Below, in pieces: positions 20,599 to 26,746 of a stretch of 64,000 nucleotides of DNA (the stretch's first letter is position 1; every line of letters starts with the position of its first letter). This DNA is from Terriglobia bacterium (lineage in GTDB: Bacteria; Acidobacteriota; Terriglobia; Acidiferrales; UBA7541): positions 1 to 64,000 of the forward strand of contig JAIMAG010000008.1 in the NCBI GenBank assembly GCA_023512135.1, in the 5' to 3' direction. The position numbers and the translations under genes were made by a program. Below the pieces are notes generated by a model. The model did no database searches and had not been told where the DNA came from. It was given only the letters and a program-made list of their open reading frames with translations.

Positions 20599-20682
20599 GA
20601 CTCGCACTAGCCTATCACGGCTGGCCGCCAGCGCAGCGATGCGCTGCATGCGGACATCGGATTTTCCCTGCAAGCTGCCGGG

Positions 20683-20691
20683 TGTTAGAAT
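20683..20691 (+). promoter_or_regulatory. Extended -10 box (TGT-TAGAAT) of trxB
   Basis: TGT followed by TAGAAT (20686-20691), 44 bases before the trxB ATG. No strong -35 hexamer is visible, as expected for an extended -10 promoter. Confidence 0.4.
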
Positions 20692-20735
20692 ACGATGCCT
20701 TTTGCAGGGCACCGATTGTCCGGAACGTAACGCCC

Positions 20736-21674
20736 ATGGGAAACGACACGCGGAAGGTCATCATCATCGGCAGCGGTTGTGCGGGCCTGACAGCGGCCAT
20801 CTATGCAGCCCGTGCGAACCTCCAGCCCCTGGTGGTGGATGGCTACGAACCGGGGGGGCAGTTGACCCTGACCACGATGGTCGAAAATTTCCCGGGCTTT
20901 CCGGAGGGCATCCTCGGTCCTGAGTTGACAGAACGCATGCGCCGTCAGGCGGAGCGCTTCGGCGCGGAATTTCAATCCGGCTCCGTCACCGCGGTCGATC
21001 TCCGCCAGCGTCCTTTCACGGTCGAAGTCGGCCAGCAGACGTTTCGCTGCCAGGCGTTGATCATTGCTTCGGGTGCCTCTGCCCGCCTGCTCGGTCTGCC
21101 CAATGAGCGCAAGCTGATGGGCCACGGCGTTTCCACCTGCGCCACCTGCGACGGTTATTTCTTTCGCGACCGGCATGTCGTGGTGGTGGGTGGCGGCGAT
21201 ACCGCCATGGAAGAGGCCATCTTCCTGACCCGGTTCGCGCGCCAGGTGACCGTTGTCCATCGCCGCAATGAGTTTCGCGCCTCGAAAATCATGCTCGAGC
21301 GCGCCCGCAAGAACGAGAAAATTCGCTTCCTCACCCCGGCCGTGGTTGTGGATGTGCTGGACGCGGAAAAAGGCGCCGTCGAACAGGTTCGCATTCGCAA
21401 CGTGGCCACCGGCGAGGAATCTCTGCTGGCGGCCGAGGGGCTGTTCATCGCCATCGGCCACGAGCCGAACACGAAAATCTTTCAGGGACAGCTCGAAATG
21501 GACTCCGCCGGTTACATCCTCACCCGCAACGGCACGCGCACGAGCGTCCCCGGTGTCTTCGCTGCCGGCGATGTGCAGGACGCTCGCTATCGTCAGGCCG
21601 TCACCGCGGCCGGCAGCGGTTGCATGGCCGCTATGGACGCAGAGAAATTTTTAGAGGAACACCACGACTCGTGA
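20736..21674 (+). CDS. trxB: Thioredoxin reductase
   Basis: 312 residues from the ATG at 20736. FAD-binding motif [10 protein letters not shown] (residues 12-21), redox-active CATC (C135, C138) followed by DGYFF, NADPH-binding [10 protein letters not shown], and the closing [20 protein letters not shown]. TrxB uses NADPH to reduce thioredoxin in the cytoplasm. The frame is open upstream to 20682, but that part overlaps the promoter. The proline dehydrogenase gene follows on the same strand. Confidence 0.95.
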
Positions 21675-21741
21675 ATCCGCCATCGCCGTCCGAACCCGCT
21701 GACCCGCGCCCGCCCCGCTCGCCCCGCCCGTGGTGGTAACC

Positions 21742-22653
21742 ATGCTGCGCGCGCTGTTGTTGCAGCTTTCGCGGAGCCGCGCGCTGGCTGCTTGGCTCAC
21801 CCGCAACCGTTTCGCCCGCCGCATGTCCCGCCGTTTTGTAGCCGGCGAAACTCTCGAGGAGGCCTGTGCCGCTGCGCGCGCCTGCAATCAGCGAGGCATG
21901 TCGGCCACGCTGGATCACCTCGGCGAAAACGTCACCAACCCCGATCAGGCGCTCCGCGCTCAGCAAACCTATCTGCAGATCTTCGATTGCATCGAGCAGC
22001 AGCGGCTGCAGGCCAACGTCTCGCTCAAGCTCACCCAGCTCGGACTGGACCTGGACATGGAATTTTGCGCTCGCTTGCTGGAGCCCATCGTGCGCCGCGC
22101 CGAAGCCTGCGGCAGCTTCGTGCGGATCGACATGGAAAGCTCCGCCTATACCGAGCGCACCTTGCAGCTCTGCAAACGCATGCGCGCCATCAGCCCGGCC
22201 GTCGGGGCCGTGATCCAGTCTTACCTGTACCGCAGCGAACAGGACGTCCGCGAGCTCATCGCGCTCGGCTGCCGCATCCGCCTCTGCAAGGGCGCCTACA
22301 AGGAGCCTCCGCAGATTGCTTTCCCGCGCAAGGCCGATGTGGACGCGAACTTCGTTCGCCTGATGCAGATGCTGCTCTCCAGCGATCTCTACCACGCCAT
22401 CGCCACCCACGACCCCCGCATGATTCAGGCCACCAAAGATTTTGCGCGCAGCCGCGGCATCGGCCCCGACCGCTTCGAATTCCAGATGCTGTACGGCATC
22501 CGCCCGGACCTGCAGCAGCAGCTCGTTCGCGAAGGCTACCGCGTACGCATCTACATCCCTTTCGGCCGGGACTGGTTCCCCTATTTCATGCGCCGGCTGG
22601 CCGAGCGCCCCGCCAACCTGCTCTTCTTGCTCCGGAACCTGTTCCGCGGTTGA
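21742..22653 (+). CDS. Proline dehydrogenase (monofunctional PutA-type PRODH)
   Basis: 303 residues. Family features: LDHLGENVTNPDQAL, SLKLTQLGLDLD, the FAD/substrate segment VRIDMESSAYTERTL, AVIQSYLYRSEQDV, RLCKGAYKEPPQIAF and FEFQMLYGIRPDLQQQLVREGYRVRIYIPFG. It oxidises proline to pyrroline-5-carboxylate with FAD and passes electrons to the respiratory chain. The aldehyde dehydrogenase half of PutA is absent and no partner is seen in the window. ATG at 21742 is preferred over GTG at 21730. Confidence 0.93.
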   Translation: MLRALLLQLSRSRALAAWLTRNRFARRMSRRFVAGETLEEACAAARACNQRGMSATLDHLGENVTNPDQALRAQQTYLQIFDCIEQQRLQANVSLKLTQLGLDLDMEFCARLLEPIVRRAEACGSFVRIDMESSAYTERTLQLCKRMRAISPAVGAVIQSYLYRSEQDVRELIALGCRIRLCKGAYKEPPQIAFPRKADVDANFVRLMQMLLSSDLYHAIATHDPRMIQATKDFARSRGIGPDRFEFQMLYGIRPDLQQQLVREGYRVRIYIPFGRDWFPYFMRRLAERPANLLFLLRNLFRG

Positions 22654-23650: not shown

Positions 23651-23715
23651 CAGCTTGTAGCGCGCCGCGCGAGGTGGTAGTAGGGAAGGCACAGTCTTAC
23701 CGAGGAGAAGCGACG

Positions 23716-23991
23716 ATGGCGTACGTGATTGCAGAGCCCTGCATTGGAACGAAGGATACGGCGTGTGTCGATGTCTGCCCGGTGGATTGCATCCATCCAC
23801 GCAAAGACGAGCCGGATTTCGAAAAGGAGCCGCAGCTCTACATCGACCCTGACACCTGCATTGATTGCGGCGCCTGTGTGCCGGTTTGTCCGGTGACCGC
23901 TATTTTTGCCTTGGAAGACTTGCCCGAGAAATGGGCCAATTTTGCCCAGATCAACGCCGAATGGTATAAGAGCCGCGCTGCTGCTGGATAA
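23716..23991 (+). CDS. fdxA: Ferredoxin, FdxA/7Fe type
   Basis: 91 residues from the ATG at 23716, which has a strong ribosome site. Eight cysteines are seen: C9, C17, C21, C25 (CIGTKDTACVDVCPVDCI) and C48, C51, C54, C58 (CIDCGACVPVCPV). The first group, with wide spacing, is typical of the [3Fe-4S]/[4Fe-4S] ferredoxins and the second of a standard [4Fe-4S] site. It carries electrons in the cytoplasm; the partners are not indicated by neighbours. A terminator follows. Confidence 0.92.
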   Translation: MAYVIAEPCIGTKDTACVDVCPVDCIHPRKDEPDFEKEPQLYIDPDTCIDCGACVPVCPVTAIFALEDLPEKWANFAQINAEWYKSRAAAG

Positions 23992-24230: not shown

Positions 24231-24689
24231 TTAGATTTCGTAGAGCCGGTAGGGGCTTTGGTCGACCATGCCGGACAGCGTCCGCTTGCGGATTTCGTCG
24301 AAGCTGGTGTGGAACAGAATCTTCTCGACGGCGCCCTGCACATCCTGCCAGAGTTGTTTCAACCCGCAGGCTTGGCTCTCGGGACAACTGTAGTGTTCGC
24401 GCAGACTCACTTCGATGCAGCTCGCCTGTGAAAATTTTCCATCTACCGCCTTCAGCACGTCCCCCACGGAGATTTGATCGGGCGGCCGGCTCAGCAGATA
24501 TCCACCCCGTGCCCCGCGTCGGCTCTCGAGGAATCCGGCGCGCTTCAGGGTCAGCAGAATGTGCTCCAGGTACTTGACGGGGATGCTGTGGCTTTCGGCA
24601 ATCTCGTGGATCGTGGCCATCTGGGGGTATTTCAGGCTCAGGTACAAGACGGCCTTGGCAGCATACTCGCCTTTGGCACTGATGCGCAT
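24231..24689 (-). CDS. Rrf2-family transcriptional regulator with three cysteines
   Basis: 152 residues. Winged-helix DNA-binding domain (residues 1-75: YAAKAVLYLSLKY, IHEIAESHSIPVKYLEHIL, RGARGGYLLSRPP). Cysteines C91, C102 and C108 lie in the dimer region where IscR and NsrR bind an Fe-S cluster; spacing here is C-x10-C-x5-C, which differs from IscR (x5, x5) and NsrR (x7, x5). It is likely a redox or Fe-S sensing repressor (inference from family). It is encoded divergently from the type III PKS, and the 140-base gap between the two starts is where an operator would lie. Confidence 0.88.
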   Translation of the reverse strand: MRISAKGEYAAKAVLYLSLKYPQMATIHEIAESHSIPVKYLEHILLTLKRAGFLESRRGARGGYLLSRPPDQISVGDVLKAVDGKFSQASCIEVSLREHYSCPESQACGLKQLWQDVQGAVEKILFHTSFDEIRKRTLSGMVDQSPYRLYEI

Positions 24690-24801
24690 GACAGTCGTCT
24701 CGATCCAGTATGTTTAGAGTTCCACAGACCTGTGCTCCTGTCAATCGCCCCGGGCCTGCGCTGGCCTCGTTCTGCTTGCCGCTGCTCTCGTTTTCTGCAT
24801 C

Positions 24802-24807
24802 TATACT
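24802..24807 (+). promoter_or_regulatory. Candidate -10 box (TATACT) of the PKS gene
   Basis: TATACT ends 22 bases before the ATG at 24830. A TTGC-type -35 lies about 19-20 bases upstream. No clear ribosome site precedes the ATG. Confidence 0.4.
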
Positions 24808-24829
24808 AGTGGGCGTAAAAACTCGCGCT

Positions 24830-25939
24830 ATGGGTTCCGCGCAGAACGTCGTTTTGCTTTCCTGTGCGACCAGTGTCCCCCCGCGCCGCTTCACGCAGCA
24901 GCAGGCGCTCGAACTGGCCGGCTACACCAGTCCGCGCATTCGCGAAATTTTTCTCAACTCCGGGATCGACGGGCGCCACTTCTGGCTCGACCCGGAAAAC
25001 TTCACGTCCAACGAAACGCCCGACGAACTCCATCGTCGTTACCGCGAAGGCGCGCTGCATCTGGCCTGTCAGGCGGCCACCGACTGCCTGCGCGCTGCCG
25101 GCCTGCAGCCCGCCGACGTGGATTGTCTGTTCGTGGCTTCCTGCACCGGATATCTCTGTCCCGATTTGTCCACCCGCCTGGCCGGCCACCTGCCGATGCG
25201 CAGCGATGTCCAGCGAGGCGCTTTGCTCGGCCACGGGTGCGCGGGAGCGCTGCCGCTGCTGCAGCGCGCTGCCGATTTCGCACGCGCCCATCCGGGCCGG
25301 CGCGCGCTGGCCATCGCCGTAGAGATTTGCTCGGCAGCCTACTACCTGGACAACACGCTCGAAACTGTTATCGGCAATGCCATCTGTGCCGACGGTGCGG
25401 CCGCCGTGCTGCTCTCTACTACCAGCAGCTCCACGGAATCCCGAGCGACGCCCGTGCTGCTCGATTTTTACTCCGTGCTCGACCCGGCGCATCAGGACAA
25501 AGTGGGATTCGAGCAGCGGGAAGGGAAGTTGCGGATTATCCTGGCGGCGGAGATTCGCCACCTGGCCGGCCCGATTGTCGACCGGTGCCTGGATGGCCTG
25601 CTGACTCCCCGCGGCCTGCGCCGCGACCAGATTCGCTTCTGGATTCTGCACCCGGGCGGGCGCAAAGTTCTCGATGCCGCCGCCCGCTATCTCGGGCTGA
25701 CCGATGACCAGCTCGTTTTTTCGCGGCGTGTGCTGCGCGATTTTGGCAATATGTCTTCGCCCACGGTTCTGTTCGTGTTGCACGAGGTGCTTCGTTCCGG
25801 CCAGCCGCGCCCGGGTGATTATGGTGTGCTGCTGGCGCTGGGGCCGGGTTTCGTGGCAGAAGCCGCGCTGTTGCAGTGGCAGCTTCCGGGACAGTCCGAA
25901 GCAGCCAGCCTTTTCTCGCAGGGGGTGCAGGGACAATGA
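24830..25939 (+). CDS. Type III polyketide synthase (chalcone/stilbene synthase family)
   Basis: 369 residues from the ATG at 24830. The full catalytic triad is present: Cys137 in GHGCAGALP, His274 in ILHPGGRKVL and Asn307 in DFGNMSSPTVL, with the C-terminal GDYGVLLALGPGF loop. These homodimeric enzymes extend acyl-CoA starters with malonyl-CoA to alkylpyrones, alkylresorcinols or similar lipids. The stop codon overlaps the start of the cupredoxin gene (ATGA), so the two are translationally coupled. No methyltransferase or oxidoreductase partner like that of Bacillus bpsAB is next to it. The product cannot be predicted from the sequence alone. Confidence 0.93.
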   Translation: MGSAQNVVLLSCATSVPPRRFTQQQALELAGYTSPRIREIFLNSGIDGRHFWLDPENFTSNETPDELHRRYREGALHLACQAATDCLRAAGLQPADVDCLFVASCTGYLCPDLSTRLAGHLPMRSDVQRGALLGHGCAGALPLLQRAADFARAHPGRRALAIAVEICSAAYYLDNTLETVIGNAICADGAAAVLLSTTSSSTESRATPVLLDFYSVLDPAHQDKVGFEQREGKLRIILAAEIRHLAGPIVDRCLDGLLTPRGLRRDQIRFWILHPGGRKVLDAAARYLGLTDDQLVFSRRVLRDFGNMSSPTVLFVLHEVLRSGQPRPGDYGVLLALGPGFVAEAALLQWQLPGQSEAASLFSQGVQGQ

Positions 25940-26349
25940 GCCTTCGACTTCTGGCAGTTTCCGCAGCGCTGCTGGTTGCAGCGCTTGCATCCATGTCCAC
26001 TCAGCAACCCGAGCCGGCACCGGCTCAGGAAATCGAAGTCACGGCCAAAAAATATGAATTTCAGCCGTCCGAGATTCGCGTCCGCCAGGGCACGCGTGTG
26101 CGGCTGCGTGTCCGTGCGCTCGACCGCGCTCACGGCATCGAATTCCGTCTCCATCCGGAAGGTGGTCCGCAGGAAGGGCCTGCCGGCCTGCGCTTCCCCG
26201 GCGAGCAGAAAAAATGGAAGCTCGAGCCGAATCAGGAGCAGGTGATTGAATTCACCGCCGAGCGCCCCGGCACGTATGCGTTTCACTGTGCGGTCTTTTG
26301 CGGTCTCGGTCATCGCCGCATGAAGGGCACGCTCGTCGTTGAACCCTAG
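25936..26349 (+). CDS. Exported cupredoxin resembling the CuA domain of cytochrome oxidase subunit II
   Basis: 137 residues. A signal peptide or membrane anchor (about 1-22) is followed by a Pro-rich spacer and a cupredoxin fold (EIEVTAKKYEFQPSEIRV). Copper ligands match the CuA pattern: H66 and the loop C118-AVF-C122-GLG-H126-RR-M129. The Glu that normally sits between the two cysteines is Val or Phe here; that residue binds copper through its backbone, so a CuA site remains possible. There is no long N-terminal two-helix hairpin as in COX2. It overlaps the PKS gene by four bases. It may be an electron carrier or copper protein in the periplasm working on the PKS product or independently (inference). 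Confidence 0.82.
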   Translation: MSLRLLAVSAALLVAALASMSTQQPEPAPAQEIEVTAKKYEFQPSEIRVRQGTRVRLRVRALDRAHGIEFRLHPEGGPQEGPAGLRFPGEQKKWKLEPNQEQVIEFTAERPGTYAFHCAVFCGLGHRRMKGTLVVEP

Positions 26350-26371: not shown

Positions 26372-26746
26372 TCAGGCGGTTTCGATGCGGGGAAACGATG
26401 CCTTCGCGGGCCGCCCGCCGCGTTCGAGTTCTCCGAGCCACTGCCGGGCTGCGCTTCGCAATTTCTCCAGGTGTATGCCCAGAAAATTCTCCGGTGCGTT
26501 CTCCAGCTTCTTCAATGCAGAGGCCAGCAGCCTCTGTGCCCCGGTCGTGTTCCCGTGCTGGTAGTGATGGAAGGCCGCTGCGATCTGGATCAATCCCTGC
26601 AGACGGGTTCGTTCCGGCTCGACCGCTCGCAACCAGATGGCTTCCCAGGTTTCGTGGGTTTCGAAGAACAGCTCCTGGTTGAACTGGGCGATGCCCTGCT
26701 CAAAAATCCTTCGGAATTCCTCCCGCTCGTCGGCTCGCGCGTTCAT
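26372..26746 (-). CDS. DUF309 protein
   Basis: 124 residues. The DUF309 core is seen: FNQELFFETHETWEAIWLRA and LQGLIQIAAAFHHYQHGN, with GAQRLLASALKKL following. Several conserved His and Glu residues in these helices suggest a metal site, but the function is unknown. The ATG at 26746 is 17 bases downstream of the pgpA stop codon, so they form a two-gene operon. Confidence 0.85.
   Translation of the reverse strand: MNARADEREEFRRIFEQGIAQFNQELFFETHETWEAIWLRAVEPERTRLQGLIQIAAAFHHYQHGNTTGAQRLLASALKKLENAPENFLGIHLEKLRSAARQWLGELERGGRPAKASFPRIETA

Follow-up and report, generated by a model that had tools for sequence, protein, structure and literature searches.

Why does a gene for a type III polyketide synthase (PKS) run into a gene for a putative copper protein in an acidobacterial genome? 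The two genes lie in the window, a stretch of 64,000 nucleotides of contig JAIMAG010000008.1 from a Terriglobia bacterium. The first-pass annotation of this DNA described them as a type III PKS coupled to a CuA-like cupredoxin and proposed that the cupredoxin might oxidise a phenolic lipid or carry electrons in connection with it. Our tentative answer is that the PKS and the probably exported cupredoxin may be functionally coupled in one redox pathway.

Both genes are on the forward strand, with the PKS first. The PKS gene (24830..25939) begins with ATG at 24830, ends with TGA at 25937-25939 and encodes 369 amino acids. The cupredoxin gene (25936..26349) begins with ATG at 25936, ends with its stop at 26349 and encodes 137 amino acids. 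The four-base overlap noted earlier was borne out as an ATGA (25936..25939, forward strand) that joins the PKS stop to the cupredoxin start. The PKS and cupredoxin genes would form a two-gene unit that is probably translationally coupled. An Rrf2-family regulator (24231..24689, reverse strand; Pfam/NCBIfam scan and alignment) is divergent from the PKS. Three cysteines in it, in the pattern C-x10-C-x5-C, are kept in six of the six sequences compared, and the regulator would be expected to bind an iron-sulphur cluster. The divergent intergenic region (24690..24829, no strand assigned) carries a TTGACA-like, presumably promoter-like element at its Rrf2 side. This element is common to relatives and is the sole shared feature in their alignment, in which no operator or regulatory motif could be defined between Rrf2 and the PKS. 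The surrounding genes serve as markers of a chromosomal slot. Upstream, on the forward strand, are a thioredoxin reductase (20682..21674; NCBIfam and synteny), a proline dehydrogenase-like gene (21730..22653; named by reading its sequence) and an FdxA-like ferredoxin (23674..23991; best NCBIfam score below cut-off). Downstream, on the reverse strand, is a DUF309 gene (26372..26746), named from its translation and labelled relatives, the Pfam DUF309 model having been run on the L204 homologue only. Neither a methyltransferase nor an oxidoreductase or FAD enzyme adjoins the pair, and thus a quinone product is not indicated at this locus.

The identity of the PKS is supported by Pfam, NCBIfam, alignment and a tree. 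The Pfam domains Chal_sti_synt_C, FAE1_CUT1_RppA and Chal_sti_synt_N all score above cut-off, and the full Cys-His-Asn triad recognised earlier was confirmed as C137/H274/N307, invariant across six of six aligned clade members. No signal peptide was seen on inspection by eye, and the enzyme looks cytoplasmic. It is the sole type III PKS found in its own genome, which gave one FAE1_CUT1_RppA match and a second, weaker match in the class-wide search. Matches in plasmid records were all below 60% identity. The closest solved structure is the pyrone synthase PKS11, which we take to be from Mycobacterium tuberculosis.

The top NCBIfam match of the PKS is DpgA (3,5-dihydroxyphenylacetyl-CoA synthase), at 260.5 bits where the cut-off is 425. 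No other type III PKS model appeared among the NCBIfam matches, and 196-212 bits are reached on the DpgA model by four ordinary type III PKSs. In a midpoint-rooted tree the PKS clade groups with two Streptomyces DpgA proteins as their sister branch (support 100/100), and the ordinary acidobacterial type III PKSs fall on the opposite side (support 100/100). Identity to DpgA is about 36%, and the PKS has HPGG and GCAG motifs where DpgA has HSGG and GCNAG. The genes dpgB and dpgC, which accompany dpgA in two Streptomyces records, are absent from the scanned neighbours of the PKS. Because of the score below cut-off, the tree position and the absence of dpgB and dpgC among the scanned neighbours, the PKS clade is, on sequence grounds, a separate sister clade of DpgA. 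Identification of the PKS as DpgA itself was rejected, since its score falls short of the curated threshold and the model is also matched by ordinary type III PKSs. One acidobacterial protein (L076) groups with DpgA and was excluded from the PKS clade counts.

The second gene encodes a stand-alone CuA-like cupredoxin, identified by Pfam, alignment and predicted structure. It has a single cupredoxin domain (Cupredoxin_1, above the Pfam cut-off) and an N-terminal signal-like helix, read from the sequence as a signal peptide, and is probably exported. The CuA ligand set of the earlier annotation is intact: all five side-chain ligands (H66, C118, C122, H126 and M129) are present with the spacing of COX2. 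They align to what we take to be the ligand residues of the Thermus ba3 CuA domain. Across aligned stand-alone cupredoxins, H66, C118, C122 and H126 are invariant (31/31) and M129 is nearly so, with V in L037. PKS-linked cupredoxins with valine in place of the axial methionine ligand occur in L006, L037 and L047. The nearest solved relatives by sequence are the CuA domains of cytochrome oxidases, followed by nitrous-oxide reductases. The predicted structure (mean pLDDT 91.3) matches 2cua with a Z of 12.9 and 1.7 Å across 94 residues, and nitrosocyanin, a one-copper protein, ties with it at a Z of 12.8. The fold alone is therefore undecisive, and it is the ligand set that points to CuA. Taken together, ligand set and fold make the protein CuA-like, and it is predicted to be loaded with copper. 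It has its fold and five side-chain ligands in common with the CuA domain of Thermus ba3 oxidase subunit II (2cua) and with nitrous-oxide reductase; unlike these, it is a stand-alone protein, and no oxidase or N2O reductase genes are among its scanned neighbours.

CuA centres are electron-transfer sites. This bears on the idea that the cupredoxin is an oxidase of the PKS product, for example one that polymerises a phenol. The aromatic product likely for a type III PKS and the probable export of the copper protein would suit such a role. No tool result points to an oxidase, and a single cupredoxin domain with the ligands of an electron-transfer site argues against one; we consider the role very improbable. 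That the cupredoxin itself oxidises a phenolic lipid, as first suggested, is likewise unsupported and unlikely because CuA sites transfer electrons. The other suggestion, electron carriage, is plausible in view of the CuA-like ligands and fold, the Rieske and cytochrome b genes in L055 and L056 and a NorB-type gene in L145, which are described below.

How widely is the pairing kept? In a class sample of 151 genomes, the clade PKS occurs in seven, the window's own counted, and the other six proteins are 59-71% identical to it. A cupredoxin adjoins the PKS in six of these seven genomes; in the seventh (G052) a methyltransferase is beside the PKS instead. In comparison, a cupredoxin motif lies near none of 23 ordinary type III PKS loci (L009-L031, viewed to about 1.5 kb per side where the contig allowed). 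Denser sampling found the clade PKS in 5/89 genomes of family f1, 3/39 of family f5 and 2/7 of family f7, for which the order search of G031 returned these seven genomes in all. Together these make 10 of 135 genomes, nine of which have an adjacent cupredoxin.

In total, 36 distinct clade loci were counted, namely 34 loci from named genomes, all titled MAG, plus the window's locus and that of one more genome of the Ignavibacteria class. L075, with a score equal to that of L061, and L211-L219 were excluded as repeats of counted loci, and a locus was counted as paired when its cupredoxin exceeded 60 bits. A cupredoxin of the same family adjoins the PKS at 13 of the 36 loci; these 13 are spread over several lineages of Acidobacteriota and one of Ignavibacteria, mostly uncultured bacteria. 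A candidate cupredoxin start falls between a 7-base overlap and 101 bases past the PKS stop in 11 of 12 loci, L041 being the twelfth, and the PKS gene of G112 is split over two frames in its assembly. The other 23 loci have no cupredoxin in the surrounding sequence, six of them with short flanks (less than 1 kb downstream in L049, L062, L070 and L071; almost nothing upstream in L052 and L067). At a profile score of at least 100 bits, 19 of 28 genomes searched, out of the 34 named PKS-locus genomes, gave no cupredoxin match. On the cupredoxin side, 24 of 30 examined family members in the class lie apart from any clade PKS. The view of the cupredoxin as an obligate PKS partner was rejected because many PKS loci lack a cupredoxin and many cupredoxins lack the PKS. 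The pairing is thus real, partly conserved and unusual, and it recurs beyond chance, part of the recurrence being shared vertical synteny. The word "coupled" in the first-pass annotation captures this recurrence and overstates its strictness, given the 23 PKS loci and 24 cupredoxins that stand apart. No paper on a type III PKS-cupredoxin pairing was among those listed by literature searches, which also covered DpgA in Acidobacteria, stand-alone or soluble CuA proteins, polyketide quinones, ArsB/ArsC and qCuANOR; the matches on both terms were plant work, to judge by their titles and the starts of their abstracts. One record titled Bacillota (HOT.MB2.40, L040) has a PKS 89% identical to that of the window and the same gene order. 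Its title is probably wrong because L215, with the same scores, comes from a genome that shares its genus with the window.

Most Acidobacteriota pairs occupy one slot, with the order trxB, proline dehydrogenase-like gene, a variable part (hydrolase, fdxA-like, Rrf2 or others), PKS, cupredoxin and DUF309, and much of the adjacency in this phylum is inherited synteny. The two genes could accordingly be neighbours only, with the cupredoxin a general periplasmic carrier of these phyla, the PKS a maker of an envelope lipid, and the operon a product of synteny or of Rrf2 co-regulation. We take this possibility seriously and regard it as somewhat doubtful. The cupredoxin tree mostly tracks the organisms, with PKS-linked, FabF-linked and unlinked copies mixed in family f5, and unlinked copies are numerous. 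Two genomes of the window's own family, G030 and G081 (L146 and L148), have the Rrf2 gene, the cupredoxin and DUF309 without the PKS, as expected of mere neighbours. The PKS label is nevertheless clustered on the cupredoxin tree (3 of 500 shuffles as low), though kinship alone could produce that. Two further observations speak against mere adjacency: the linkage is seen in differing gene orders and in a second phylum, and different synthase cassettes immediately precede the same cupredoxin family.

The differing orders are found in L006 and L047, where the cupredoxin is upstream of the PKS, a SAM methyltransferase is downstream and the methionine ligand is replaced by valine. The second phylum is represented by L055 (titled Bacteroidetes) and L056 (titled Ignavibacteria), which are close relatives and in which genes for a Rieske protein and a cytochrome b come after that of the cupredoxin. 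The cupredoxin of these two loci is a lipoprotein, judging from its LSGC sequence, which we take to be a lipoprotein motif. L056 also encodes a methyltransferase-like protein and a membrane protein like the b-type cytochrome ExtQ, both below NCBIfam cut-offs. On the cupredoxin tree, the Ignavibacteria proteins fall on a branch of their own, which includes two that are unlinked to a PKS. The Ignavibacteria PKSs likewise make up a separate branch; it also takes in a Gemmatimonadales record and records titled Bacteroidetes, and L055 and L056 are its only members with a cupredoxin nearby. These branches, with only two linked loci, suggest that the PKS-cupredoxin linkage arose separately in Ignavibacteria, the alternative being an ancient linkage that was lost many times. 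Transfer of both genes together from one phylum to another is unsupported, as the cupredoxins and PKSs of Ignavibacteria each stand on a branch of their own.

The surroundings also bear on a role in metal homeostasis, in which the cupredoxin would help to handle iron or copper, with the PKS product as a chelator or protectant under iron-sulphur Rrf2 control. The conserved cysteines of Rrf2 are consistent with this, as are an FTR1-family permease with an FtrD-like domain that is divergent from the pair in L046 and the fold that FtrB-like cupredoxins have in common with this protein. Resorcinols are poor chelators. The FTR1 seed matched only 1 of 14 loci compared, and the CuA ligand set indicates electron transfer; metal handling is distinctly unlikely to be the function of the pair.

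A different perspective is provided by what precedes the cupredoxin elsewhere. Family cupredoxins of at least 100 bits are present in 33 of the 151 class genomes, and the neighbourhoods of 30 of these were examined (G082, G024 and G053 were excluded). The clade PKS is beside the cupredoxin in 6/30, and in another 6/30 a FabF, a methyltransferase and an FAD enzyme are immediately 5' of it. One genome (G020, in a 1.5 kb view) has an upstream FabF gene and FAD-like fragments, and two have a methyltransferase directly before the cupredoxin. The remaining 15 show no biosynthetic neighbour, three of them (G025, G008 and G150) viewed to 1.5 kb only. The FabF cassettes (L138:3221-7061, L133, L134, L136, L139 and L142) consist of a FabF-type ketosynthase, a SAM methyltransferase and a geranylgeranyl-reductase-like FAD enzyme, the last matched below cut-off. 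L124 carries a remnant-like form of this cassette. We know of no description of a FabF-methyltransferase-FAD-cupredoxin cassette. In L138 and L139 the FAD gene and the cupredoxin overlap by four bases, and trxB or DUF309 is visible in three of the six FabF-cassette stretches.

Synthases are also distributed unevenly among these genomes. In three genomes of the window's family (G126, G098 and G102), the space from fdxA to DUF309 is occupied by an ordinary type III PKS and lacks a cupredoxin. Across the class, PKSs of this ordinary kind (above 100 bits) are found in 0/7 clade-PKS genomes versus 77/144 others (hypergeometric 0.006, kinship ignored). The six FabF-cassette genomes have neither kind of type III PKS (0.007 class-wide and 0.06 within their own family, kinship ignored). 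From these variants of the slot, with the clade PKS, FabF, an ordinary PKS or no PKS, it follows that the slot holds interchangeable condensing enzymes and that the cupredoxin is a frequent yet optional companion. The exchange of condensing enzymes before one cupredoxin is a natural experiment on its small-molecule partners.

How might the PKS and the cupredoxin take part in one redox pathway? The cytoplasmic PKS would condense malonyl-CoA into an aromatic metabolite of the resorcinol or pyrone type, and enzymes encoded elsewhere would probably convert this into a redox-active phenol or quinone. The exported cupredoxin, with its predicted dinuclear CuA centre, would move electrons in the periplasm in the same pathway. 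The likeliest route would lead from a Rieske/cytochrome b quinol-oxidising complex, or from the metabolite itself, to the cupredoxin and then to a terminal acceptor. Judged on sequence alone, the PKS would stay in the cytoplasm and the cupredoxin would be exported; a direct enzyme-to-enzyme step is therefore improbable, and a membrane-soluble product could link the two. In favour of the shared pathway, the linkage recurs in differing surroundings (the reversed order of L006 and L047; the Rieske and cytochrome b genes of L055 and L056), and the same cupredoxin family follows FabF-methyltransferase-FAD cassettes or a methyltransferase. Against it, the PKS and the cupredoxin each often occur without the other. 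A quinol-oxidising partner may exist in the window's own genome, which has three cytochrome b matches, all on contigs other than that of the window. One of these loci (L190) has a 659-aa frame, with a Rieske-like gene before it and a CxxCH-motif gene after it, as read by eye.

A bolder version is a polyketide-based respiratory branch. In it, a polyketide quinone or a related redox lipid made by the type III PKS would be oxidised via Rieske/cytochrome b or directly by the secreted stand-alone CuA protein, outside cytochrome c oxidase and N2O reductase, with several synthases recruited to the slot. We consider this unlikely as a whole. Precedents exist for parts of the shared redox pathway. Passages of PMC9927152 report that type III PKS-methyltransferase-oxidoreductase operons produce respiratory polyketide quinones in actinomycetes, with pkqA-C of Mycobacterium smegmatis and the operon of Streptomyces sp. 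MNU77 as examples, and a mention of the polyketide quinones of Mycobacterium and Streptomyces also occurs in PMC10896814. As described there, these operons are a precedent for a type III PKS that feeds respiration, and the cupredoxin family is elsewhere found behind methyltransferase-FAD cassettes; the window pair differs in having a copper protein and no adjacent methyltransferase or oxidoreductase. The type III PKS-methyltransferase-oxidoreductase operons of Planctomycetota and hierridin producers in PMC10896814 follow a similar type III PKS operon logic, whereas the main text of that paper contains no match to "copper". For the cupredoxin, the description of qCuANOR of Bacillus azotoformans in PMC3475470 offers a small separate CuA protein with a partner other than an oxygen-reducing oxidase. 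It differs in that its CuA-type protein is a subunit of a membrane enzyme and the partner is an NO reductase, according to the same account (PMC3475470). If the link is functional, polyketide-based electron transport would extend from actinomycetes to Acidobacteriota and Ignavibacteria, and a common stand-alone CuA-like family, present in 33/151 class genomes, would acquire a role.

Several other arrangements were observed. In L145 (2432-6514), the neighbours of a stand-alone CuA-like family member are an NnrS-like protein and a NorB with a cytochrome c-like domain. This setting recalls the separate CuA-type subunit that PMC3475470 describes for qCuANOR, and L145 possibly encodes a CuA-fed NO reductase. 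In four Acidobacteria loci (L050, L051, L052 and L053) an O-methyltransferase follows the clade PKS, with a 7-base overlap in three of the four; that of L053 has Pfam Methyltransf_2 and a dimerisation domain. A TAT-type ferritin-like protein, named from its sequence, is upstream of the PKS in some Acidobacteriaceae (L051:4156-5397, also L070 and L071); the L051 copy has no Pfam/NCBIfam match. Such a protein adjoins the cupredoxin in L130-L132, L151 and L152. In Ignavibacteria (L057, L058, L060, L063, L065, L066 and L069), a Dus-like gene precedes the clade PKS, and several of these loci have a PolX-like gene downstream of it, the names again being read from sequence.
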